From positions 1-32,468 of the forward strand of contig JAOAFY010000011.1 in the NCBI GenBank assembly GCA_026416035.1: a DNA stretch of 32,468 bases. The letters are read 5' to 3'. Every line of letters starts with the position of its first letter. Within the stretch, counting starts at the first letter, position 1. Both the position numbers and the translations under genes were made by a program. This document shows, piece by piece, positions 2,729 through 13,473 of this stretch. The notes beneath the pieces are model-generated. The model made no database searches, was not told the DNA's origin, and saw nothing but the letters and a program-made list of their open reading frames with translations. This DNA is from Coriobacteriia bacterium (GTDB taxonomy: Bacteria > Actinomycetota > Coriobacteriia > Anaerosomatales > Anaerosomataceae).

Positions 2729-3406
2729 TCACATGCGCCAGAGGTACCCCACGTTGCGCACGGTCTCGAGCCGCGCAGCGAGTTCCGGACCGAGCTTCGC
2801 CCTGATGCGCCGCACGTGCACGTCCACGGTGCGCGCGCCGCCGAAGTAGTCGTGGCCCCACACGCGACGCAGAAGCGCCTCGCGGCTGTAGACGCGGTTG
2901 GGGTGCGTCACGAGGAAGGCGAACAGCGCGTACTCCATGTACGCGAACTCCACCGGCACGCCGGAGACGTGTGCCTGGTAGGTGGCGAGGTTCAAGGTGA
3001 GCTCACCGACGCGCACCACCGACGAGTCGCCCGCCTCTTCGCCTGGCCACAGCAACAGACGCGCCCGGGCCGCGATCTCCGCCGGCTGCGCGCTGCGGAC
3101 GACGAAGTCGCTCGGGACTCCCACGGGCAGCCGAAGCGACGAGACCGCATCCGGCTCGACGATCAGCAGCAGCGGAACCGGCTCGTCTGCGGCAGCGTGC
3201 CGCTCCGCAGCTGCGACGACGTCGCGTGCGTCGTGGCCCGCATCTGCCACGACCAGCGCGGCATCCTGCGCCTGCTCTGCGCGGATGGCCGCCTCCCGCG
3301 GCCGCTCCACGAGCACGACGTCGAGCCGCTCGAGCGCCTCACGCACGCGGGCGCCGAGGTGCGCGTCGTCGGTGCACACAGCGACTGTCTTCACACTCGC
3401 CATCAT
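2729..3406 (-). CDS. OmpR/GlnR-like winged-helix response regulator
   Basis: 225-residue DNA-binding regulator. Residues 1 to about 118 form a receiver-like domain and about 125-225 an OmpR/PhoB-type winged helix (LLRRVWGHDYFGGARTVDVH; RRIRAKLG; VRNVGYLWRM). The receiver keeps Asp13/Asp14 and an Asp (D55) near the phosphorylation site. The conserved beta-5 Lys-Pro is replaced (DFVVRSAQP), so it is an atypical receiver. No histidine kinase is adjacent. It sits directly downstream of glnA on the same strand. By gene context and architecture it resembles actinobacterial GlnR, an orphan nitrogen regulator; this is inference, and an ordinary OmpR-type regulator is possible. Two tandem ATG codons (3406 and 3403) are candidate starts, and neither has a strong ribosome site. 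Confidence 0.85.
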   Translation of the reverse strand: MMASVKTVAVCTDDAHLGARVREALERLDVVLVERPREAAIRAEQAQDAALVVADAGHDARDVVAAAERHAAADEPVPLLLIVEPDAVSSLRLPVGVPSDFVVRSAQPAEIAARARLLLWPGEEAGDSSVVRVGELTLNLATYQAHVSGVPVEFAYMEYALFAFLVTHPNRVYSREALLRRVWGHDYFGGARTVDVHVRRIRAKLGPELAARLETVRNVGYLWRM

Positions 3407-3523: not shown

Positions 3524-4855
3524 CTAGATGATCGACAAGTACCGGTCGAGCTCCCACTTCGAGACGTACTTGATGTAGTCGGCCCACTCGGCCTTCTTGT
3601 TCTCGACGTAGAACGAGTGGATGTGCTCGCCGAGGACCTCCTTCATGAGTTCCGACTGCTCGAAGCGCTCGATCGCCTCGCCGAGGTTCTTCGGCAGCGT
3701 CTCGATGCCCGCTTCGGCAAGCTCCTCCTCGGTCATCTCGAAGATGTCGTTCGTGGCCTCGGGCATGAGCTCCAGCTCCTCCTCGATGCCCTTCAGGCCA
3801 GCGCCGAGCATGACTGCGAACGCGAGGTACGGGTTGCAGGACGGATCGGGCGAGCGGAGCTCGATGCGGGTCGCCGCCTCCTTGCCGGGCTTGTACAGAG
3901 GCACGCGCACCATCGCAGAGCGGTTGCGCTGCGCCCACGAGATGTACACCGGCGCCTCGTAGCCCGGCACGAGCCGCTTGTACGAGTTGACGAGCGGGTT
4001 GGTGACCGCGCAGAACTCGGGAGCATACTTCAGCAGACCCGCGATGTAGTGACGCGCGATCTTGGAGAGGTGCTGCGGGTCGTTTGCGTCGAAGAAGGCG
4101 TTACCGTCCTTGGTGAACAGCGACTGGTGGGTGTGCATGCCCGACCCGTTCTGCCCCTCGATCGGCTTCGGCATGAAGGTGGCGTACACGCCGTTCTGGT
4201 ACGCGATCTCCTTCACCACGAGGCGATACGTCATCACGTTGTCCGCCATCGTCAGCGCGTCGGCGTACCTGAGGTCGATCTCGTGCTGGGATGGAGCGAC
4301 CTCGTGGTGCGAGTATTCGACCGGGATGCCGAGCTTCTCGAGCGTAAGCACAGTCTCGCGACGCAGGTCGCTCGCCACGTCGAGCGGAGTGAGGTCGAAG
4401 TACCCGCCCTGGTCGAGCACCTCGGTGCCCTGATCGTTCTTGAAGTAGAAGAACTCGAGCTCGGGCCCGACGTACATCGTGTAGCCCATGCTCGCTGCCT
4501 TGTCGGTCATCCGCTTGAGCGCGTAGCGCGGGTCGCCTTCGAACGGCGAGCCGTCCGGCTGACGCACATCGCAGAACATGCGCGCGACGCCGACCTCGCC
4601 CGACCGCCAGGGCAGCACCTGGAAGGTGCTCGGGTCGGGGAAGGCCACCATGTCGGACTCCTGGATGCGGGTGTACCCGTCGATCGAGGAGCCGTCGAAG
4701 CCCATGCCCTCCTCGAACGCGCCTTCGAGCTCGCTGTCGGTGATCGCGAACGACTTCAGCACACCGAGCACGTCCGTGAACCAGAACCGGATGAACCGGA
4801 TGCCGCGCTCCTCTACGGTCTTGAGCACGTAGTCCTTGTCGAACTTGGCCGTCAT
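3524..4855 (-). CDS. glnA: Glutamine synthetase type I (GSI-alpha-like)
   Basis: 443-residue glutamine synthetase: ATP-dependent ligation of ammonia to glutamate, cytoplasmic dodecamer. Visible family features are an N-terminal beta-grasp (RFIRFWFTDVLG), a metal-binding region (GPELEFFYF), NGSGMHTHQSLF in the ATP/glutamate region, NRSAMVRVP, and RIELRSPDPSCNPYLAF. Its length and the absence of the NLYDLP adenylylation motif near residue 390 indicate the GSI-alpha type, controlled by feedback and transcription rather than adenylylation. The ATG at 4853-4855 has a strong GAGGAGGAG ribosome site. It follows the split glutamate synthase genes after 133 bp. That gap carries a GAAAC-N6-GAAAC direct repeat and may hold its own promoter. 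Confidence 0.97.
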   Translation of the reverse strand: MTAKFDKDYVLKTVEERGIRFIRFWFTDVLGVLKSFAITDSELEGAFEEGMGFDGSSIDGYTRIQESDMVAFPDPSTFQVLPWRSGEVGVARMFCDVRQPDGSPFEGDPRYALKRMTDKAASMGYTMYVGPELEFFYFKNDQGTEVLDQGGYFDLTPLDVASDLRRETVLTLEKLGIPVEYSHHEVAPSQHEIDLRYADALTMADNVMTYRLVVKEIAYQNGVYATFMPKPIEGQNGSGMHTHQSLFTKDGNAFFDANDPQHLSKIARHYIAGLLKYAPEFCAVTNPLVNSYKRLVPGYEAPVYISWAQRNRSAMVRVPLYKPGKEAATRIELRSPDPSCNPYLAFAVMLGAGLKGIEEELELMPEATNDIFEMTEEELAEAGIETLPKNLGEAIERFEQSELMKEVLGEHIHSFYVENKKAEWADYIKYVSKWELDRYLSII

Positions 4856-4930: not shown

Positions 4931-4946
4931 GTTTCGAGCGTGTTTC
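4931..4946 (-). promoter_or_regulatory. Candidate GlnR-type operator before glnA
   Basis: On the minus strand the sequence reads GAAAC-ACGCTC-GAAAC, two identical pentamers spaced by six bases, about 76-91 bases upstream of the glnA start. Actinobacterial GlnR sites are described as gTnAc-N6-GaAAc. The second pentamer matches exactly and the first in four of five positions. A GlnR-like regulator gene lies just downstream of glnA. Assignment is inference from spacing and context. Confidence 0.45.
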
Positions 4947-4988: not shown

Positions 4989-5798
4989 TCACAGGTACGC
5001 GTACATCTTCCCGTACGGCCGGTGGCTCATCGGAGCGATGCGGGTGAACGGCACGGCGAGCACCTCGTCGAGGTCCACGCCGAGCGATCCGCAGTAGTCT
5101 TCGAGGACGGGCCTCAGCGCCTTATAGTCCTCGTCGTCGGCAGGCGCGATGCCGACCTCCTTGCCGCACTGCCACGGCTCGACCTCTCCGCGCACGTAGA
5201 TGACGCCGCCGTGCATGCCTGTGCCGAGGAACGATCCCGCGACGGGGTCGTTCGGGAACTGCGTGTTCATGCCGAGCAGGACGAGCATGCCGCCTGCCAT
5301 GTACTCGCCGAAGAAATCGCGCGCCTTGCCGCCGCACACGACGATCGGCACGAGGTTCTCGTACGCCTTCATGTGGATGCCGACTCGGTAGCCGACGTCG
5401 CCGCGGACGAACACGCGCCCGCCGCGCATGCCGTAGCCGAGCACGTCGCCGGCGTCCCCGTGGACGACGACCTTGCCCGACGCCATGGTGTTGCCGACGC
5501 CGTCCTGCGCGTTGCCGAACACCTCGACTGCAGGCCCGTCCATGAACGCGGCGAGGTCGTTCCCTGCCGTCCCGCGCACCTCGATACGAAGGTCAGGCAC
5601 GCGCAGCCCTGCTCCGATGTAGCGCTGCCCGTTCGCGTTCTCGACTATCACGTGTCGGACGCCCGATGCCACGGCGTCACGTATCGCGTCGTTGAGCTGC
5701 CGATAGTACACGCCGTTCGCATCGAAGACGACCGCTTCGCCTTCGGCGCGCTTCGCCGGAGCGACCTCCCGGTATCCTTCGATCACCTGAATCGCCAT
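4989..5798 (-). CDS. Glutamate synthase GXGXG-domain subunit
   Basis: 269-residue stand-alone version of the C-terminal GXGXG beta-helix domain of GltB. In split, archaeal-type glutamate synthases this is the third subunit. Seen: repeated glycine-rich turns (YIGAGLRVPDLRIEVRGTAG; GVGNTMASGKVVVHGDAGD; GYGMRGGRVFVRGDVGYR; FLGTGMHGGVIYVRGEV) typical of the fold. The start is ATG 5796-5798 with a GAGGAGGGG ribosome site. The upstream reading frame extends further but is not needed. It lies 10 bases after the FMN subunit, so it is co-transcribed. Its role is structural in the synthase, and it has no catalytic residues of its own. Confidence 0.93.
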   Translation of the reverse strand: MAIQVIEGYREVAPAKRAEGEAVVFDANGVYYRQLNDAIRDAVASGVRHVIVENANGQRYIGAGLRVPDLRIEVRGTAGNDLAAFMDGPAVEVFGNAQDGVGNTMASGKVVVHGDAGDVLGYGMRGGRVFVRGDVGYRVGIHMKAYENLVPIVVCGGKARDFFGEYMAGGMLVLLGMNTQFPNDPVAGSFLGTGMHGGVIYVRGEVEPWQCGKEVGIAPADDEDYKALRPVLEDYCGSLGVDLDEVLAVPFTRIAPMSHRPYGKMYAYL

Positions 5799-5808
5799 GG
5801 TCCCCTCC

Positions 5809-7320
5809 TCACATGCCCGCCGGCTTGACGCCGAGGATGCGACAAGTCTGCTCATCGAGACCGATCGAGCGCAGCCGCTCACGGCTTCCGCGCAAAGACT
5901 CGATCGCGTTCACCCCGAGCGCGCCCAGGATCTCCTGGAGCTCGTGGCTCCACGCGTGGATCAGGTTGGTCACCCGCTCCGCCCCCCACTCGGGGTCGAT
6001 GCGCCGCGTGAGCTCGGGCTTCTGCGTCGTGATGCCCCACGAGCAGCTGCCGGTGTGGCAGCTCTGGCACACGTGGCAGCCGAGCGCCACGAGCGCTGCC
6101 GTGCCGATGGCCACCACGTCTGCGCCGAGCGCGATCGCCTTGGCGACGTCGGCAGACGAGCGGATGGAGCCGGCAGCCACGATCGACGCTTGGTTGCGGA
6201 TGCCTTCGTCGCGCAACCGCTGGTCGACGACGGCGATCGCGATCTCCACTGGGATGCCGACGTGGTCCCGGATCACTGCGGGCGCCGCGCCGGTGCCGCC
6301 GCGGAAGCCGTCGAGGTACACGTAGTCCGCGCCGGCGCGCACGATGCCGCTGGCGATCGCGCCGACGTTGTGCACCGCGGCGATCTTCACGCCGACGGGC
6401 TTGTACCCGCTCGCCTCCTTGAGCGCGTAGATGAGCTGCCGCAGGTCCTCGATCGAGTAGATGTCGTGGTGCGGTGCAGGAGAGATTGCGTCGGTGCCCT
6501 GAGGGATCATCCTCGTGGAGGAGACTTCCTTGTTGATCTTCTCTCCGGGCAGGTGCCCGCCGATGCCTGGCTTCGCGCCCTGTCCGATCTTGATCTCGAT
6601 CGCAGCTCCACGCTGCAGGTACTCCGGCCCGACGCCGAAACGGCCCGATGCGACCTGCACGATGACGTGGTCCTGATACGGGTACAGGTCCTCGTGCAGA
6701 CCGCCCTCGCCGGTGTTCATCAGGATGCCGCACCGCTCGGCTGCCATCGCAAGCGACTTGTGGACGTTGAGGGACACGGAGCCGTAGCTCATCGGCGAGA
6801 AGATGATCGGCGTCGCGAGCTCGATGTTGCGGCTCATCCCGCCGTCTTCAGCAAGCTTGAACCCGCCTGCGCCGTCCGGCTCCACCTTCACTGCGTCAGG
6901 CTTGCGTCCGAGGTACGTCCGAAGCTCCATCGGCTCGCGCAGCGGGTCGATGGATGGGTTCGTGACCTGGCACGCGTCGAGCAGCAGGTGGTCGAAGATG
7001 CGCGGGTAGGGTTGCGGGTTGCCCATCGAGGTGAGCAGCACCCCACCGGTCTCCGCCTGCTTCCAGACGGCCTTGCGCAAGCCGGCCGTCCAGTTGTCGT
7101 TGTCGCGGTACGCGAGCGGGTTGCGCTCGATGGTGATGCAGCGCGCCGGACAGAAGGTCACGCACCGATGGCACGCCCGGCACTTCTCGTCGTGCGGGAT
7201 GGGCCGCTCGTTGAAGTCGTACACGCCCCATCCGCACTGCTGCACGCATCGACCGCACTTGTGGCACCGGTCGTAGTCGATCTTGACCCGGAACTCGGGT
7301 TGGATGAACGTCGCTGGCAT
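5809..7320 (-). CDS. Glutamate synthase FMN-binding subunit with N-terminal ferredoxin domain
   Basis: 503 residues. Residues 15-60 carry two ferredoxin-type cysteine clusters (C19, C22, C25, C29 and C47, C50, C53, C57), enough for two 4Fe-4S clusters. The remainder is the GltB central FMN/TIM-barrel domain: SPMSYGSVS, then GQGAKPGIGGHLPGEKI, DGFRGGTGAAP, and a Cys-rich segment (CHVCQSCHTGSC) for the 3Fe-4S cluster. It converts 2-oxoglutarate plus ammonia (channelled from the amidotransferase subunit) to glutamate using electrons delivered through the iron-sulfur centres. This is the archaeal-type layout, and no NADPH-binding GltD is seen in the window. It starts one base after the TAA of the amidotransferase gene. 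Confidence 0.95.
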   Translation of the reverse strand: MPATFIQPEFRVKIDYDRCHKCGRCVQQCGWGVYDFNERPIPHDEKCRACHRCVTFCPARCITIERNPLAYRDNDNWTAGLRKAVWKQAETGGVLLTSMGNPQPYPRIFDHLLLDACQVTNPSIDPLREPMELRTYLGRKPDAVKVEPDGAGGFKLAEDGGMSRNIELATPIIFSPMSYGSVSLNVHKSLAMAAERCGILMNTGEGGLHEDLYPYQDHVIVQVASGRFGVGPEYLQRGAAIEIKIGQGAKPGIGGHLPGEKINKEVSSTRMIPQGTDAISPAPHHDIYSIEDLRQLIYALKEASGYKPVGVKIAAVHNVGAIASGIVRAGADYVYLDGFRGGTGAAPAVIRDHVGIPVEIAIAVVDQRLRDEGIRNQASIVAAGSIRSSADVAKAIALGADVVAIGTAALVALGCHVCQSCHTGSCSWGITTQKPELTRRIDPEWGAERVTNLIHAWSHELQEILGALGVNAIESLRGSRERLRSIGLDEQTCRILGVKPAGM

Positions 7321-7321
7321 C

Positions 7322-8530
7322 TTACGCGGTCACCTCCACCGCTTCGTCGCACACGTCCTCGGTGCCGAGGACCGCGCACGAGACCTGCTGAGGAGTCAGG
7401 TGCAAGTCGCCGTGAATCGGCCAAGGCATCCCCTGGACCCGCGCCACCGTCGGCTCGCCCGCCTTCGGCATCCACACGGCGTCGGGATTCGGTGCGACTG
7501 CGCGGATCGCGGCCTCCTCCGAGGCGACGATCACGATGCTCCCGGCCCGAGCCGCCACGAGCGGACGCAGCTTGATGCGGTCGTTGAGGGCCACCATGCC
7601 GCCGTTGAAGCCAAGGATGATGGCGAACGGGCCGTTGAGCATCGCCGGTCCGTACACCGCCCGAAGCGAGCGCATCAGCTCCCGCTTTTCAGGCGGCATG
7701 CGGTCGATGTCCGACCACAGCGGCGCGGCGAGCGCAGTGCACGCGAGCTCGAGCGGCAGGCCGTGACGCCGGAGCATCAGGTCGAACAGGTATGCCGCGA
7801 CCTCCGTGTCGGTGCCCAGCGTGCACTTGTACCCGAACTGCTCGAGGTAGCGCGAGTTGATGCCGTACGCCGAGATCTCGCCGTTGTGCACGATGGTCCA
7901 GTCGAGCAGCGCGAACGGGTGGGCGCCGCCCCACCAGCCGGGAGTGTTCGTCGGGAACCGGTTGTGGCCGGTCCAGGTGTGCCCCTCGTACTCCTCCAGG
8001 CGGTAGAAGTGGCCGATCTCCTCGGGGAATCCGACTCCCTTGAAGACGCCCATGTTCTTGCCTGACGACGCGACGAACGCGCCGTCCACCGTTGCGTTGA
8101 TGGTCATGACGAGCCGGACGACCATGTCTTCTTCGGACAGCTCGAGGCGTTCGATCTCTCCCGGCAGCGGCTTGAGGAAGTACCGCCACAGCAGCGGCGC
8201 ATCGCAGACGCCCTTCACCGGCCGGGTCGGCATCGGTTCGGCGAGGTCGACGACGCAGTGCTCCGCCAGCAGCGCCTCGGTCTGCTCGCGTGCGTGCTCG
8301 TCGTGGTACATGAGGTGGAACGCGAAGTGGTCAGGGAACTCGGGGTAGATGCCGTAGCCGGCGAACCCGCCGCCGAGCCCGTTGCCCCGGTCGCGCTGAA
8401 CGGCCATCGCGAGGATGATCTGCTCGCCGCTCATGACCTTCCCGCTCTCGTCGCAGATGCCGGCGAGCCCGCATCCGCCATGGATCTTGAACGGCGCCTC
8501 TTCGGCGTACCGCGGCCGCGTCGCGCTCAT
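7322..8530 (-). CDS. Glutamate synthase class II glutamine amidotransferase subunit
   Basis: 402-residue glutaminase subunit of a three-part glutamate synthase. The likely nucleophile is Cys20 in KIHGGCGLAGI, so a 19-residue propeptide would have to be removed to expose it, as in other GltB-type Ntn hydrolases. Other family motifs are GHNRFPTNT, VHNGEISAYGINSRYLEQFG, LGTDTEV and NGPFAI. Two adjacent ATGs exist: 8533 overlaps the upstream stop as ATGA, and 8530 is better spaced from the AGAGGAG site, so 8530 is chosen. The overlap with the HdrBC-like gene indicates translational coupling. Confidence 0.94.
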   Translation of the reverse strand: MSATRPRYAEEAPFKIHGGCGLAGICDESGKVMSGEQIILAMAVQRDRGNGLGGGFAGYGIYPEFPDHFAFHLMYHDEHAREQTEALLAEHCVVDLAEPMPTRPVKGVCDAPLLWRYFLKPLPGEIERLELSEEDMVVRLVMTINATVDGAFVASSGKNMGVFKGVGFPEEIGHFYRLEEYEGHTWTGHNRFPTNTPGWWGGAHPFALLDWTIVHNGEISAYGINSRYLEQFGYKCTLGTDTEVAAYLFDLMLRRHGLPLELACTALAAPLWSDIDRMPPEKRELMRSLRAVYGPAMLNGPFAIILGFNGGMVALNDRIKLRPLVAARAGSIVIVASEEAAIRAVAPNPDAVWMPKAGEPTVARVQGMPWPIHGDLHLTPQQVSCAVLGTEDVCDEAVEVTA

Positions 8531-9861
8531 CATCGCTCCTCTCCTTCCGTGGATCCAAGGAGCACGGTGAGGTCGCCGCCGCGCTCCGGAAGCGGATCGA
8601 GCCCGAGCTTCTTGCGGGCCGACTCGCGCGCAGACCCCAGAAGCCCGGTCTTGACGAAGGTCTCGTACGCGGAGACGACCTGCTCCGGACCAAGACCCGC
8701 CTCGATGGCGATCTCTTTCAGGCGCCGGAAGGCGTCTGCCATGCCGATGCGGCTCGGGCAGAGCTCCTGGCACGTGTAGCACTCCAAGCACTTCCACAGC
8801 TGCCGCTCCGCCAGCACCTCGTCGATCTCGCCAGCGAGCAGCCGCTCCATGATCTCCGTCGGCTGGAAGGCCGGGTCGATCTTGCACACCGGGCAGTCGT
8901 CCTTGCACGCCTGGCAGTTCACGCACTTGGCGAGCAAGGACACCTCGAAGAGCGCCGCGAGCCGCGCCTTGTCTGCCTGGCGCGCCTCCCAGCGCTCCAG
9001 GAAGGGCTGCACGCCGACGCGGTGCATGTCCAGCCCGATCTCCTCGGGGGCATGGCCATACGCGAGCGCGACGAGCTCCGAGAGGTACAGCACGGGCACG
9101 TGCACCTCCTCCTTCGCGCGCTGCAGGGCCGCCTGGTTCAAGTCGAACTGCTGGAAGCAGCTCGGGCACACGACGACGAGCGCATCGACTCCGTGCGCCT
9201 GCACATCGAGAAGCTTCCGCCGCGCGAAGGCGAGCGAGGTGTCGCGCTCGCCCACCCGGTCGAGCGCCCCGCCGCAGCACTGCATCTTGGTGGGGTAGTC
9301 GACGACAGTAGCGCCGAGAGCAGCCACGAGCGCCTCCACCTTCGTCGGCGACATCGGGTCGTCCCAGCGCACCGCGGGGCTCGGACGCAGCAGGTGGCAG
9401 CCGTAGTGCACCGCGATCCGCAGGCCCCACAGCGGTTTGACCGCCTTCGAGCCGACGAGACCCGCTCCGAGCACGTCCGCGAGCCACTCGGCCAGGTGCA
9501 CCACGCGGACTTCGCCATCGAAGCGCAGACCCTCGCGAGCCAGCCGCTCGTTCACGGCATCCCGAGCGCGCCAGTCGGCCGTCAGGTGGCTCTCCGCCTC
9601 CTTGAACGTCGAGTAGCAGCCGTTGCACGGCGTGACGACGTCGAGCCCCGCACGCTCGACGATCGCGAGGTTGCGGGCCGCGACCAGGTAGAACGCATCC
9701 TCGTCGTTCGACTTGACGAGCACGCCTTCGGGGCAGCAGGTGTGGCCCTCGAGCTCGTGCACCGTCGCGCCCAGGTCCTCGAACACCAGCCGCGTGGCCT
9801 TCTCGATGAAGGGGAACCGCGCAGGGATCGTGCATCCCCAGAAGACTGCGAACTCCTTCAT
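8530..9861 (-). CDS. HdrB-HdrC-like iron-sulfur fusion protein linked to glutamate synthase
   Basis: 443 residues. The N-terminal half is HdrB-like with two cysteine-rich CCG domains: first C10, C42-C43, C79 and C82 (CNGC); second GCHLLRPSP, then QCCGG, then CPSC. The C-terminal half is HdrC-like with two ferredoxin motifs (CVNCQACKDDCPVCK and CLECYTCQELCPSR). HdrB uses such cysteines for noncubane 4Fe-4S clusters that handle thiol/disulfide chemistry in methanogens. Here the order is B then C, the reverse of HdrD, and no HdrA is present. Its position as first gene of the glutamate synthase operon suggests an electron-transfer role for that enzyme (inference). ATG 9859-9861 is chosen; a GTG three codons upstream (9868-9870) is an alternative. 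Confidence 0.88.
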   Translation of the reverse strand: MKEFAVFWGCTIPARFPFIEKATRLVFEDLGATVHELEGHTCCPEGVLVKSNDEDAFYLVAARNLAIVERAGLDVVTPCNGCYSTFKEAESHLTADWRARDAVNERLAREGLRFDGEVRVVHLAEWLADVLGAGLVGSKAVKPLWGLRIAVHYGCHLLRPSPAVRWDDPMSPTKVEALVAALGATVVDYPTKMQCCGGALDRVGERDTSLAFARRKLLDVQAHGVDALVVVCPSCFQQFDLNQAALQRAKEEVHVPVLYLSELVALAYGHAPEEIGLDMHRVGVQPFLERWEARQADKARLAALFEVSLLAKCVNCQACKDDCPVCKIDPAFQPTEIMERLLAGEIDEVLAERQLWKCLECYTCQELCPSRIGMADAFRRLKEIAIEAGLGPEQVVSAYETFVKTGLLGSARESARKKLGLDPLPERGGDLTVLLGSTEGEER

Positions 9862-9892
9862 GCGTCTCACCGGTCCTTCGTCCGCGAAAACG

Positions 9893-9932
9893 AAAGCGCC
9901 CGCCGCCGGCCGAAGCCGGGGCGAGCGCCTTT
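9893..9932 (-). terminator. Leader terminator (attenuator) of the glutamate synthase operon
   Basis: On the minus strand AAAGGCGCTCGCC folds onto GGCGGGCGCTTT, with an inner CCGGC-TTCG-GCCGG stem capped by a UUCG tetraloop, followed by the T-rich run TTTCGTTTT. This is a strong intrinsic terminator. It lies after the mapped promoter and before the first gene, so it can act as an attenuator. Its 5' arm reuses the loop and 3' arm of the hairpin at 9921-9938, making the two structures mutually exclusive. Confidence 0.8.
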
Positions 9933-9938
9933 GCTCGC
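9921..9938 (-). promoter_or_regulatory. ANTAR-type hexaloop RNA hairpin (P2-like)
   Basis: The minus strand reads GCGAGC-AAAGGC-GCTCGC: a six-base-pair stem closing a six-base loop with A at position 1 and G at position 4. That is the described recognition signature of ANTAR-domain antiterminators such as EutV and NasR. The loop and 3' arm form the 5' arm of the terminator at 9893-9932, as expected of an antiterminator hairpin. An ANTAR regulator is encoded about 100 bases upstream. Confidence 0.75.
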
Positions 9939-9949
9939 TTCGTTCGATT

Positions 9950-9967
9950 CAGCACGTCATCGTGCTG
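9950..9967 (-). promoter_or_regulatory. Leader hairpin P1
   Basis: The minus strand reads CAGCACG-ATGA-CGTGCTG, a perfect seven-base-pair stem starting one base after the predicted transcription start, 11 bases before the P2-like hairpin. Its position fits the first of the paired ANTAR hairpins. Read with a six-base loop (GATGAC) it has G at position 4 but not A at position 1, so the match is only partial. Confidence 0.5.
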
Positions 9968-9974
9968 TCTGCGG

Positions 9975-10003
9975 ATTGTAGCACGCCAGACGCGCGATGG
10001 AAA
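9975..10003 (-). promoter_or_regulatory. Sigma70-type promoter of the glutamate synthase operon
   Basis: The -35 TTTCCA (9998-10003) and -10 TACAAT (9975-9980) are separated by exactly 17 bases on the minus strand, just after the stop codon of the ANTAR gene. The predicted start near A at 9968 gives a leader of about 107 nt before the HdrBC-like gene, long enough to hold two hairpins and a terminator. Confidence 0.65.
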
Positions 10004-10021
10004 CCTCGGGCGTCTACGGTG

Positions 10022-10591
10022 TCACTTCTGCGCTTCGTCGGCGAGCACGATTGCTTGGGCGACCTCCCTGAGCGTAAGCCGCCTGTCCATCGCCAGCTTC
10101 TGCAAGCGTCGGAACGCCTCCGGCTCGGTCAATCCCTGGGCCATGAGCACGCCTTTGGCGCGATCGAGGAGCTTGCGCGTCTCAAGACGCTCGGCGAGGT
10201 CTGCCGCCTCCTCCTCCAACGCACGCGCCTCTGCGAACCGCGCCACGGCCACCTGCATGGCGGGGAGGATGTCTTTCTTGGAGAACGGCTTGACGAGGTA
10301 CGCCATCGCTCCTGCAGAGCACGCTTCCTGCACGTAGTTCGCCTGCGAGAAGGCGGTGACCATGACCACCGGCGCCACGCGCTCGTCGCACAGGATCCTC
10401 GCGGCCTCGATGCCGTCCGTGCCGGGCATCTTGATGTCCATGAACACGACGTCCGGCCGAAGCTCCCGCGCCAAGCGGATCGCCTCTGCGCCATCCCGCG
10501 CTTCTGCGACGACCTCGTGGCCCTCCTCCTCGAGCATCTCGCGGAGGTCCATCCGGATGATCGCCTCATCTTCCGCGATCAACGCCCGCAC
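10022..10591 (-). CDS. ANTAR-domain response regulator (RNA-binding antiterminator)
   Basis: 189 residues. The receiver domain (about 1-120) has the acidic pocket LIAEDEA, phosphoacceptor VVFMDIKMPG and conserved Lys in YLVKPFS. A coiled linker follows, then an ANTAR domain (about 133-186: LETRKLLDRAKGVLMA, then EAFRRLQKLAMDRRLTLREV). ANTAR proteins dimerise on phosphorylation and bind paired hexaloop hairpins to block transcription terminators. GTG start at 10589-10591, seven bases after AGGAGG and one base after the kinase stop, so it is coupled to the kinase. PdtaR/NasT-like. A candidate RNA target lies immediately downstream at 9893-9967. Confidence 0.95.
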   Translation of the reverse strand: MRALIAEDEAIIRMDLREMLEEEGHEVVAEARDGAEAIRLARELRPDVVFMDIKMPGTDGIEAARILCDERVAPVVMVTAFSQANYVQEACSAGAMAYLVKPFSKKDILPAMQVAVARFAEARALEEEAADLAERLETRKLLDRAKGVLMAQGLTEPEAFRRLQKLAMDRRLTLREVAQAIVLADEAQK

Positions 10592-10592
10592 C

Positions 10593-12005
10593 TCAGTTCC
10601 TCCTGTCCTCAGCCGCCAACGGCACTCGCACCGTCACCGTCGTCCCGCGCCCGCTCGAGAACACGAGCGTCCCACGAAGGTCTTCCTCGACGACCGTGCG
10701 GACGATGGCCAGCCCGAGGTTGCCAGACGCAAGCGGGTCGAACCCCTCCGGCAGCCCAGCACCAGAATCGCGCACGACGAGCACCAGCGCCTCCGGCAGC
10801 CGGCGAAGCGTCACGGTGACCGTCCCGCTCCCGCCGCCGATCCCGTGCTCTACGGCGTTGTGGACGAGCTCTGCGAGCACGAGCGCGAGCGACGTGGCGG
10901 TCGCTGCGGGCACGAGCCCCGTCTCGCCTTCGACGATGGCGCGTGTGCGCCCGTCGCCGCCCATGCCTTTGAGCACCATGTCCACGACCGTACGCGCCAC
11001 GGCACCGAACTCCACCGCCTCTTCTGTCGCAGACGCGAGCATCTCGTGCACCACCGCCATCGAGGCGACGCGGTCGACGGCCTCAGAGAGCGCCCGGCGC
11101 GCCTCGTCGCTTGAGGCCCGCCGGGCCTGGATACGCAGCAATGAGGCGATCGTCTGCAAGTTGTTCTTCACCCGGTGGTGGACCTCGCGGATGGTCGCTT
11201 CTTTGACGCGGATCTCCTGCTCGCGCCGACGCACGTCGGTGATGTCCTCGACGAGCACGAGCGCTCCAGGGGCGAACCCGATGGCGCGGTACTTCAACAC
11301 GCGCCCCGCCACCTCGATCGTGACCGCTCGCGCCGCCCTGGCCTGGGCGACGGGAGAGATCGCGGTGGCGCCGCCCGGCAACGCGGCCGCCGGCCTCCCG
11401 AGCAGGGTGCCTTCGAAGCCCGCCAGCCGCATGATGTTGACCGCGTTGGGGCTCGCGTACGAGACCGTCCCGTCAGGTCCGATCTCCAAGACGCCATCAC
11501 CGGCACGTCTGACGGTGGAGAACGGCTCGCCGGAGTCCAGGTCGAGCACCGGGCCGTCGCACAGCAGCTGGATGACTCGTTCGGCAAGCCCCATGAACGC
11601 GACCTCCATCGCCCCGGGGCTGTCCGTCACCTGGTCCGAAAGGTTGCGTATCAGCACGCCGATGACCGCACCCTGCTCCGTGATCGGGTACGCTGCGGTG
11701 GCGTACACGATGCCGCGGGCCGTCCGCCGACGCGTGCTGCACGCTGGCAACCCGGAGCGGAACGCCTCATACGCCTCGGTCTCCTCGGTTTCGGCAAGCG
11801 TCCGTCCCACCCTGCTCGCACCGATGGCGGAGACTGCAGTTGCAGGACGAGCGTCCGCCACCACCCGCAACGCCTTCCCATCCCCGACGGCGAGGGCCAC
11901 GTCGCCATACCCCAGGTCTGCGATGAGCTGCAGGTTGTCCGCGACGTTCCGCAACCGCTCGCTTCCGAGCGGTCGCACCGATGGCGATGGAAGGCTGTCG
12001 GTCAT
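10593..12005 (-). CDS. PdtaS-like sensor histidine kinase
   Basis: 470-residue soluble sensor kinase without membrane segments. About residues 1-145 form a GAF-like histidine-kinase N-terminal sensor, about 165-265 a PAS-like domain (DGVLEIGPDGTVSYASPNAV). Then comes an HWE/HisKA_2 dimerisation helix with the phosphoacceptor His (REVHHRVKNNLQTIASLLR), and a HATPase_c domain (LAELVHNAVEHG; DSGAGLPEGFD; GLAIVRTVVEEDL). This architecture pairs with ANTAR regulators (PdtaS-PdtaR). Start chosen at ATG 12003-12005. A TATACT hexamer ends six bases upstream of it, so the message may be leaderless. Longer in-frame extensions to 12176 would run through this promoter-like region and are disfavoured. The signal sensed is unknown; the context suggests nitrogen status. 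Confidence 0.92.
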   Translation of the reverse strand: MTDSLPSPSVRPLGSERLRNVADNLQLIADLGYGDVALAVGDGKALRVVADARPATAVSAIGASRVGRTLAETEETEAYEAFRSGLPACSTRRRTARGIVYATAAYPITEQGAVIGVLIRNLSDQVTDSPGAMEVAFMGLAERVIQLLCDGPVLDLDSGEPFSTVRRAGDGVLEIGPDGTVSYASPNAVNIMRLAGFEGTLLGRPAAALPGGATAISPVAQARAARAVTIEVAGRVLKYRAIGFAPGALVLVEDITDVRRREQEIRVKEATIREVHHRVKNNLQTIASLLRIQARRASSDEARRALSEAVDRVASMAVVHEMLASATEEAVEFGAVARTVVDMVLKGMGGDGRTRAIVEGETGLVPAATATSLALVLAELVHNAVEHGIGGGSGTVTVTLRRLPEALVLVVRDSGAGLPEGFDPLASGNLGLAIVRTVVEEDLRGTLVFSSGRGTTVTVRVPLAAEDRRN

Positions 12006-12011
12006 GCAACG

Positions 12012-12017
12012 AGTATA
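12012..12017 (-). promoter_or_regulatory. Possible -10 box (TATACT) of the kinase operon
   Basis: TATACT on the minus strand lies six bases before the kinase ATG, which would place the transcription start at or next to the start codon (leaderless mRNA, common in actinobacteria). No convincing -35 is seen. Confidence 0.4.
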
Positions 12018-12116
12018 CCTGCCGGGACGCAGCGGGCGTGTGCTTACAGCACACCGACGAGAGTGCCGTCTGTCGGAATTAGGTAACCTCTCATCTCCAG
12101 AAGGCCGATAAGCCAT

Positions 12117-12131
12117 GTGACAGTCGGTCAC
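12117..12131. repeat. Small inverted repeat in the divergent promoter region
   Basis: GTGAC-AGTCG-GTCAC, two complementary five-base arms, 19 bases before the HD-GYP-like start in the 145-bp divergent gap with the kinase operon. It could be an operator, or chance. Confidence 0.25.
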
Positions 12132-12150
12132 TGAGGGGAAACGAGCGGTC

Positions 12151-13473
12151 ATGCACACGCCAGTCGAAACGGTCATCAGACGCGAGCGTCAGCTCCATGC
12201 GTTGTCGTACGTGGTCATCATCGCGTTGTGCGGGATGGCCGCCGTCTTGACGTCGGCGATCCTCAAAGGGCTCGGCGTCGGCAACGTGTGGCTCATCGAG
12301 AGCTACTACTTCAGAGTCCTTTTCCCTGGCCTGCTGGTCGCCACGGTGCTCTACATGGCTGACCAGCATCGGCGGCTGCAGAACCGGTTGCGCGAAGCTC
12401 ACGAAGCGCTCGCGACGACCGCGACTGACCTCGAGCGGTCGGTCTCCCGCCTCACTTTCGCCTACGACGTCGCACAGGCCATGGCGTCGCTTACGGTATC
12501 CAATGCGATCAACAAGACCCTCGCGAAGGCGCTCGAGCACTTCGACGCCGACGTCGCAGCCATCGTGGAAGACGACGTGGATCTGGTCCCCGGCGATGAG
12601 GCAGCCCCTGAGTCGGCAGTTGCGGCCATCATGTCGGCTGCAGTGGAGGCCGTCCGCTCGGGGAGGTCCGTGACTGCTGGCGACCGCCACACGGGCTTCA
12701 CGCTCGCTGTTCCGCTGCGCGTCACCGGACGGCTGACGTCCGTCGCGGCACTGTGGCGGAAAGAGCCTGCCTTCTCTAGCGACGACGTAGACACGCTGCT
12801 GATCGCATCCCGCCTCTTGGAGCTCGGCCTCGAGAACCGCGTGTTGCTCGAACAGGCGAACGGTCGGCTGCGCGGTCTGATGAACACCGTCGCTACGCTG
12901 GTTGCCGATCGCGTGCCCGAGTACCGCCAGCACGCCCAGTCGACCGCCGACCTCGCAGTGAACGTCGGCCTCGCCTTGGGTCTGACTCGCGAAGACATCG
13001 ACCACCTGCGCGAGGCAGCCACCCTCCTCGACGTCGGGATGCTGGACGTGCCAGCAGAGGTCATCGCGGCTCCGCGGCCGCTCACGCCGGCGGAGAGCGA
13101 GATGATCCGCGCCCATCCCGTCGCAGGCGAGAGGATCCTTGCCGAAGCCGGCTTCCATCCCCAGGTCATTTCTGCAGTGAGGGCCCATCACGAGCGCCTG
13201 GACGGATCGGGCTACCCCGACCGTGCCCGCGGTGATGAGATCCCGTTGCTCGCGCGGATCCTCGGCGTGTGCGACACCTTCGTGGCTTTGAGCTCCCCGC
13301 GGCCGCATCGACCTGCGCACTCGCTGCCTGCGGCGCTCACGCTGATCGAAGCCGAAGCGGGATCGCGTTTCGACGCGCGCGTCGTCGCGGCGCTCAAGCA
13401 GGTCCTTGGGATGCGTCCAGCCGCCGGACAGGACGTGCCTGAGATCGAGGAGCTGCTCCGGGCTGCCCAGTAG
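12151..13473 (+). CDS. Membrane-anchored degenerate HD-GYP protein
   Basis: 440 residues. Two N-terminal membrane segments (about 18-40 and 52-70) are followed by a coiled coil (about 72-100), a GAF-like domain (about 100-235), and an HD-GYP domain (about 245-415). The family hydrolyses cyclic di-GMP. The GYP part is intact (HHERLDGSGYP, residues 346-356), as are RAHP and GVCDTF. The hallmark HDxGK is LDVGM here: His293 is Leu and Lys297 is Met. Loss of a metal-ligand His predicts weak or no phosphodiesterase activity, so it may act as a c-di-GMP sensor or scaffold (inference). It is transcribed divergently from the sensor kinase. ATG start with a GAGGGG site placed rather far (12 bases) upstream. 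Confidence 0.85.
   Translation: MHTPVETVIRRERQLHALSYVVIIALCGMAAVLTSAILKGLGVGNVWLIESYYFRVLFPGLLVATVLYMADQHRRLQNRLREAHEALATTATDLERSVSRLTFAYDVAQAMASLTVSNAINKTLAKALEHFDADVAAIVEDDVDLVPGDEAAPESAVAAIMSAAVEAVRSGRSVTAGDRHTGFTLAVPLRVTGRLTSVAALWRKEPAFSSDDVDTLLIASRLLELGLENRVLLEQANGRLRGLMNTVATLVADRVPEYRQHAQSTADLAVNVGLALGLTREDIDHLREAATLLDVGMLDVPAEVIAAPRPLTPAESEMIRAHPVAGERILAEAGFHPQVISAVRAHHERLDGSGYPDRARGDEIPLLARILGVCDTFVALSSPRPHRPAHSLPAALTLIEAEAGSRFDARVVAALKQVLGMRPAAGQDVPEIEELLRAAQ

Follow-up and report, generated by a model that had tools for sequence, protein, structure and literature searches.

The DNA examined here is a 32,468-nucleotide (nt) window from a Coriobacteriia bacterium (contig JAOAFY010000011.1, assembly GCA_026416035.1), a member of an actinobacterial group that has received little study, and its subject is an RNA leader that, like the genes around it, lies on the minus strand. 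Along that strand, a gene for a PdtaS-like sensor histidine kinase (10593..12176; Pfam GAF_PdtaS, HisKA_2, and HATPase_c) is followed by one for a PdtaR/EutV-like response regulator (10022..10591; Pfam Response_reg and ANTAR), then by the leader, a candidate transcription attenuator, and then by a gene for a HdrB/HdrC-like cysteine-rich iron-sulfur protein (8530..9870; Pfam CCG and Fer4_8). The Pfam matches bear out a first-pass annotation, which had placed an ANTAR regulator and its kinase immediately upstream of the leader. In relatives whose locus extends that far, the kinase gene likewise sits directly 5' of the regulator gene. The regulator, encoded by the only ANTAR gene detected in this genome, combines the receiver and ANTAR domains required of PdtaR/EutV-type proteins. 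Its Protein Data Bank (PDB) matches are solved structures of ANTAR antiterminators and include 1s8n (a "putative antiterminator"; E 3e-63), which we take to be Mycobacterium tuberculosis PdtaR, and 6wsh (E 5e-39).

The leader begins with a predicted promoter (9975..10003) consisting of TTTCCA (10003-9998), a 17-nt spacer, and TACAAT (9980-9975), with an extended -10 (TGC). This is the sole promoter-like match between 9500 and 10400, where 0.0 were expected, and it would place the transcription start near 9968. Hairpin P1 (9950..9967; CAGCAC[GATGAC]GTGCTG) follows, and an 11-nt linker, which fits both published linker ranges and spans 8-18 nt in relatives, separates it from hairpin P2 (9921..9938; GCGAGC[AAAGGC]GCTCGC). 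Each hairpin carries a six-base loop; the P1 loop, GATGAC, has G at position 1 and so departs from the A1/G4 rule for ANTAR targets, as had been remarked. The intrinsic terminator (9887..9929) comprises a stem from 9929 to 9895 with a UUCG loop and one bulged C, followed by the T-rich tract TTTCGTTTT. The promoter, both hairpins, and the terminator had been proposed in the first-pass annotation, and all are present. A simple terminator scan found none at the leader; the bulged C is the most likely reason. Rfam gave no meaningful match there; the only match in the window above its gathering score is a tRNA elsewhere.

The 5' arm of the terminator is formed by P2 loop positions 4-6 together with the P2 3' arm, and folding agrees with the earlier suggestion that the two structures exclude each other. 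When the growing transcript is folded, P1 and P2 form at 48-60 nt and the terminator form appears from ~70-80 nt. For the full leader, the terminator fold reaches -54.7 kcal/mol, compared with -45.5 kcal/mol when P2 is forced, a gap of ~9 kcal/mol. P2 and the terminator are thus predicted to be mutually exclusive, because the terminator fold wins once its 3' arm has been transcribed. P1 competes with neither of them, and in the window it has an alternative fold in which one extra G-C pair leaves a 4-nt loop. The leader folds more stably than shuffled sequences do (z score -3.4).

Comparison with relatives had been proposed as a check in the first-pass annotation. We took the sequence 5' of the HdrBC-like gene from 55 genomes of the order, including the window genome, and found the P1-P2 dual hairpin in all but G051, hence in 54, which goes well past what chance would produce. 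Across these 54 leaders, P1 and P2 together show 41 double-change cells (12.7 in shuffles) and 91% of cells are paired, while P1 and the terminator together show 68 double changes and 98.6% paired. A terminator is predicted in 53 of the 54. P1 is free to vary in sequence and yet remains paired, its fifth pair being AU in 36 leaders, UA in 12, and GC in 3. The P2 core, GAGC-6-GCTC, is essentially invariant, which fits a sequence that has to form part of P2 and of the terminator alike. Just outside this core lies the one strongly variable position, alignment column 81. It covaries with the base opposite it in the terminator (GC 28, AU 25) and far less closely with the one opposite it in P2 (17 of 52 unpaired). 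Selection thus clearly maintains the terminator fold, and the invariance of the core and loop bases suggests that P2 is selected too.

Loop conservation follows the pattern expected of ANTAR targets, and the loss of the hexaloop in relatives that had been named as a possible refutation did not occur. Position 4 is G in both P1 and P2 in every one of the 54 leaders, and P2 position 1 is A in 52, including the window. P1 position 1 is A in 44 leaders and G in 10. P2 also resembles the eut 13-mer AGCAANGRRGCUY, which relatives carrying GAGCAATGAAGCTC match exactly. The leader therefore has the features that define ANTAR-target RNAs, namely two hexaloop stem-loops, G4 in both loops, A1 in P2, and a short linker; the mutual exclusion of P2 and terminator and the single ANTAR gene beside the leader are those of EutV/NasR-type systems.

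Hairpins in this position could simply terminate transcription at the end of the upstream regulator gene, with the operon starting elsewhere. In 19 of the 54 genomes, the window genome among them, the RNA and the ANTAR gene are indeed less than 300 nt apart. However, the RNA precedes the HdrBC-like gene even in genomes whose regulator gene is distant or on another contig, and the extended -10 (TGnTA...T) is conserved in the alignment directly 5' of P1. A plain terminator, moreover, would need neither a conserved P1 nor the conserved hexaloop bases, and we consider this explanation very improbable. Scarcely more probable is the alternative that the ANTAR protein acts on translation rather than termination, as has often been proposed for actinobacterial ANTAR RNAs. 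The end of P2 and the start codon are ~60 nt apart here, and the covarying terminator with its T-rich tract lies between them, making translational control the less likely mode.

Further support for an ANTAR attenuator comes from the distribution of protein and RNA. Among 61 genomes including that of the window, exactly one ANTAR gene is found in 56, none in 5, and never more than one. We built a covariance model, R1, from the 54 leaders, the window copy among them. R1 has one strong match in each of 54 genomes; genomes in the model match by construction, and it is the absence of a second strong match per genome that is informative. In a class-wide sample of 296 genomes, 58 of the 59 that bear the RNA also carry an ANTAR gene, and the sole exception (G050) is a 64% complete genome. 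The distance between the RNA and the ANTAR gene reaches 14 kb in some genomes, and in eight the two lie on different contigs, yet neither has been lost. A distant family of the class, outside the order and not represented in R1 (f17), also has the RNA and terminator in front of a HdrBC-like gene (E 1e-5 and 1e-7), with its ANTAR gene on another contig. Four genomes (G021, G029, G045, and G053) lack the ANTAR gene, the RNA, and the target gene alike, some of these genomes being incomplete. These data indicate that a predicted circuit of one ANTAR protein and one detectable target is conserved across the order.

Searches for additional targets produced candidates that we rejected. In the window genome, R1 scores the attenuator at E 4e-11 and its next-best match (C22) at E 0.002; the latter is 30 bits weaker, has no T-tract terminator after it in the sequence examined, and was judged a chance match. 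A match in G427 (E 6e-5) is antisense and inside an open reading frame, and was also taken as chance. Scanning for the P2 pattern alone returned extra matches, mostly GAGCGA variants about as frequent as in the control, and no second convincing target, and a phylum-wide R1 scan at E 1e-4 added nothing further that was convincing. In L079, where glnA lies beside the kinase-regulator pair, we found no ANTAR RNA at that place.

We conclude that the leader very probably (roughly 0.87) attenuates transcription under the control of the ANTAR two-component system encoded beside it, a reading strongly supported by conservation, by covariation of P1 and the terminator, by co-occurrence of protein and RNA, and by the neighboring gene pair. 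In the mechanism we propose, RNA polymerase would start at ~9968, and by default the leader would fold into the 9929-9895 terminator, so that transcription would stop ahead of the HdrBC-glutamate synthase genes. Once phosphorylated by the PdtaS-like kinase, the PdtaR-like regulator would bind P1 and P2 as an ANTAR dimer and hold P2 as an antiterminator, allowing the polymerase to read through. Regulator binding, its dependence on phosphorylation, and antitermination itself are all inferred, and the direction of control, activation, is assigned because the anatomy fits the EutV model.

Several observations weigh against this reading. The U-tract after the terminator is broken by CG. Six members of the order that carry the ANTAR gene (G057, G059, G116, G121, G134, and G141) gave no detectable RNA, and two of them, G057 (L188) and G059 (L189), keep the kinase and are missing the HdrBC target gene; an ANTAR gene without the RNA may reflect decay, assembly gaps, or the existence of other targets. 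The association of RNA and ANTAR gene (Fisher's test, p ~3e-46) is inflated by shared ancestry, and the retention of both despite their separation is the stronger evidence. In G051 (L032), P2 and the -10 are kept ~200 nt before the HdrBC gene, with no recognizable P1, apparently through loss, which makes this genome a natural test of the requirement for P1. Finally, the window P1 has G rather than A at loop position 1, and mutation of A1 impaired control by EutV (PMC3369931). Taken by itself, the window copy would fall outside the strict 2012 rule, which asks for A at this position. We treat the G as variation within the ANTAR RNA family and not as failure of a defining feature, because A1 is only a majority feature (over 50%) in actinobacterial RNAs (PMC8164766).

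ANTAR RNAs had already been predicted in front of glutamate synthase and other nitrogen genes by Ramesh et al. (2012; PMC3369931), and we assign the leader, on sequence grounds that are unusually strong, to the type of ANTAR antitermination leader defined there. Its closest mechanistic counterparts are the EutV/EutW attenuators of Enterococcus faecalis (eutP, eutG, eutS, and eutA; PMC3369931), which share two hexaloop hairpins with a 5-12-nt linker, G4 and mostly A1, overlap of P2 with the terminator, an ANTAR response regulator paired with a kinase, and the near-identical 13-mer. Unlike those, the present system has a HdrBC-glutamate synthase target, a PdtaS-like kinase, one detectable target per genome, and G at P1 loop position 1. 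The glutamate synthase ANTAR RNAs predicted in Desulfotomaculum reducens (PMC3369931), compared by description only, are of the same RNA type and have the same metabolic target, but this organism is a Firmicute with several such RNAs in its genome.

Mycobacterial PdtaS-PdtaR and the actinobacterial ANTAR RNAs cataloged by Mehta and Ramesh in 2021 (PMC8164766) offer a homologous kinase and regulator and a dual-hairpin RNA. In that catalog, curation required two hexaloop stems and a 2-25-nt linker, predicted targets are in transport, metabolism, and regulation, and the RNAs, in contrast to ours, frequently extend over the ribosome-binding site and seldom precede a terminator. Neither Coriobacteriia nor glutamate synthase is mentioned in its main text, and none of the papers listed by a literature search pairing Coriobacteriia with ANTAR was relevant. 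Actinobacterial ANTAR RNAs are thought to be often translational, to have diverse targets, and to vary in number, as do the ANTAR proteins; the element here is a covariation-supported attenuator. Its pairing of one protein with one detectable target provides a clean natural system for studying the signal of a PdtaS-type kinase and ANTAR specificity, and the A1/G4 rule could be probed with the naturally varying sequences of the 54 leaders, some of which differ in the purine at P1 position 1.

The attenuated unit comprises the HdrB/HdrC-like gene and a three-part glutamate synthase, an enzyme of nitrogen assimilation. The glutamate synthase operon that had been named as the target is thus present in its three parts; its first gene is instead the HdrB/HdrC-like iron-sulfur gene, which NCBIfam HdrB and HdrC models match below cut-off and which probably starts at the ATG at 9861, an assignment aligned with relatives. 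Downstream lie the glutaminase (GATase) part (7322..8533; GATase_2/GATase_6 in the reading frame containing the gene), the flavin mononucleotide (FMN)/ferredoxin part (5809..7320; Glu_synthase, E 7e-139), and the GXGXG part (4989..5882; E 9e-33). The HdrBC protein may serve as electron-delivery partner of the three-gene enzyme. Next come glnA, encoding a type I glutamine synthetase (3524..4855; GlnA model above cut-off), and 3' of it a GlnR-like OmpR-family regulator gene (2729..3406; Pfam GlnR_1st and Trans_reg_C; best PDB matches 8hig and 8hih). The arrangement of genes at the locus recurs in three sister genomes, and glnA-glnR is probably a unit separate from the attenuated operon. Among the adjacent operon genes examined (4989-9870), none encodes a GltD-type subunit.

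What the kinase senses is a separate question. The first-pass annotation had described a complete sensor, antiterminator, and target circuit for ammonium assimilation; conservation, covariation, and co-occurrence uphold the attenuator and its ANTAR pair, and the "ammonium" label is unsupported. An ammonium sensor should not be assumed, because mycobacterial PdtaS answers to heme/iron and other cues. We find it possible, though less likely than not, that the attenuator responds to redox, iron, or heme rather than nitrogen status, the premise being that the HdrBC protein and ferredoxin domain make the enzyme redox-dependent, with the PdtaS-like kinase reporting. The kinase has a GAF_PdtaS domain, the operon is rich in iron-sulfur proteins, and, besides its heme/iron response, mycobacterial PdtaS is linked to copper and cyclic di-GMP (c-di-GMP) (PMC11537054). 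Against this, most ANTAR RNAs of the 2012 report precede nitrogen genes (PMC3369931), and candidate GlnR-like boxes mark the locus as nitrogen-controlled. Such an input concerns only the signal and is compatible with an ANTAR attenuator.

These boxes lie at two places, in opposite orientations. At the attenuator promoter, a degenerate GTTTC-N6-GTTTC direct repeat with 2 mismatches (9989..10004) is a candidate GlnR-like site; the exact repeat occurs 5' of the -10 in 34 of the 54 leaders, and TTTC-N7-TTTC in 39, every other spacing tested being found in 3 or fewer. Ahead of glnA, an exact GAAAC-N6-GAAAC repeat (4931..4946, minus strand) is a candidate GlnR box that is kept in the three sister genomes (L057, L058, and L059) and in L079. 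The repeat resembles Streptomyces GlnR sites, given as GTnAC-n6-GTnAC or gTnAc-n6-GaAAc (PMC3087709), and a GlnR-like gene follows glnA. It appears that glnA-glnR has a GlnR-like box of its own, and we regard GlnR control at the attenuator promoter, and hence dual nitrogen control of the locus, as a lead. We speculate, tentatively and as a single joint proposal, that the glutamate synthase promoter operates as a two-input gate. A GlnR-like activator would set initiation through GTTTC-N6-GTTTC and the PdtaSR-like system would set elongation through the attenuator; the enzyme would be produced only under nitrogen scarcity combined with a further condition, possibly redox or iron; and across the whole order the ANTAR system would serve no other target.

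Similar arrangements were seen beyond the phylum. On one deltaproteobacterial contig (L106), a dual-hairpin match (1026-1070) lies directly after an ANTAR gene. On a second (L108; IMCC39146), the downstream gene differs, being a small gene, and the model score is weak (E 0.03). The regulator there is 43% identical to that of the window, and an A1/G4 dual hairpin with a terminator (5601-5700) lies directly 3' of the ANTAR gene, the same anatomy as in the window, in another phylum.
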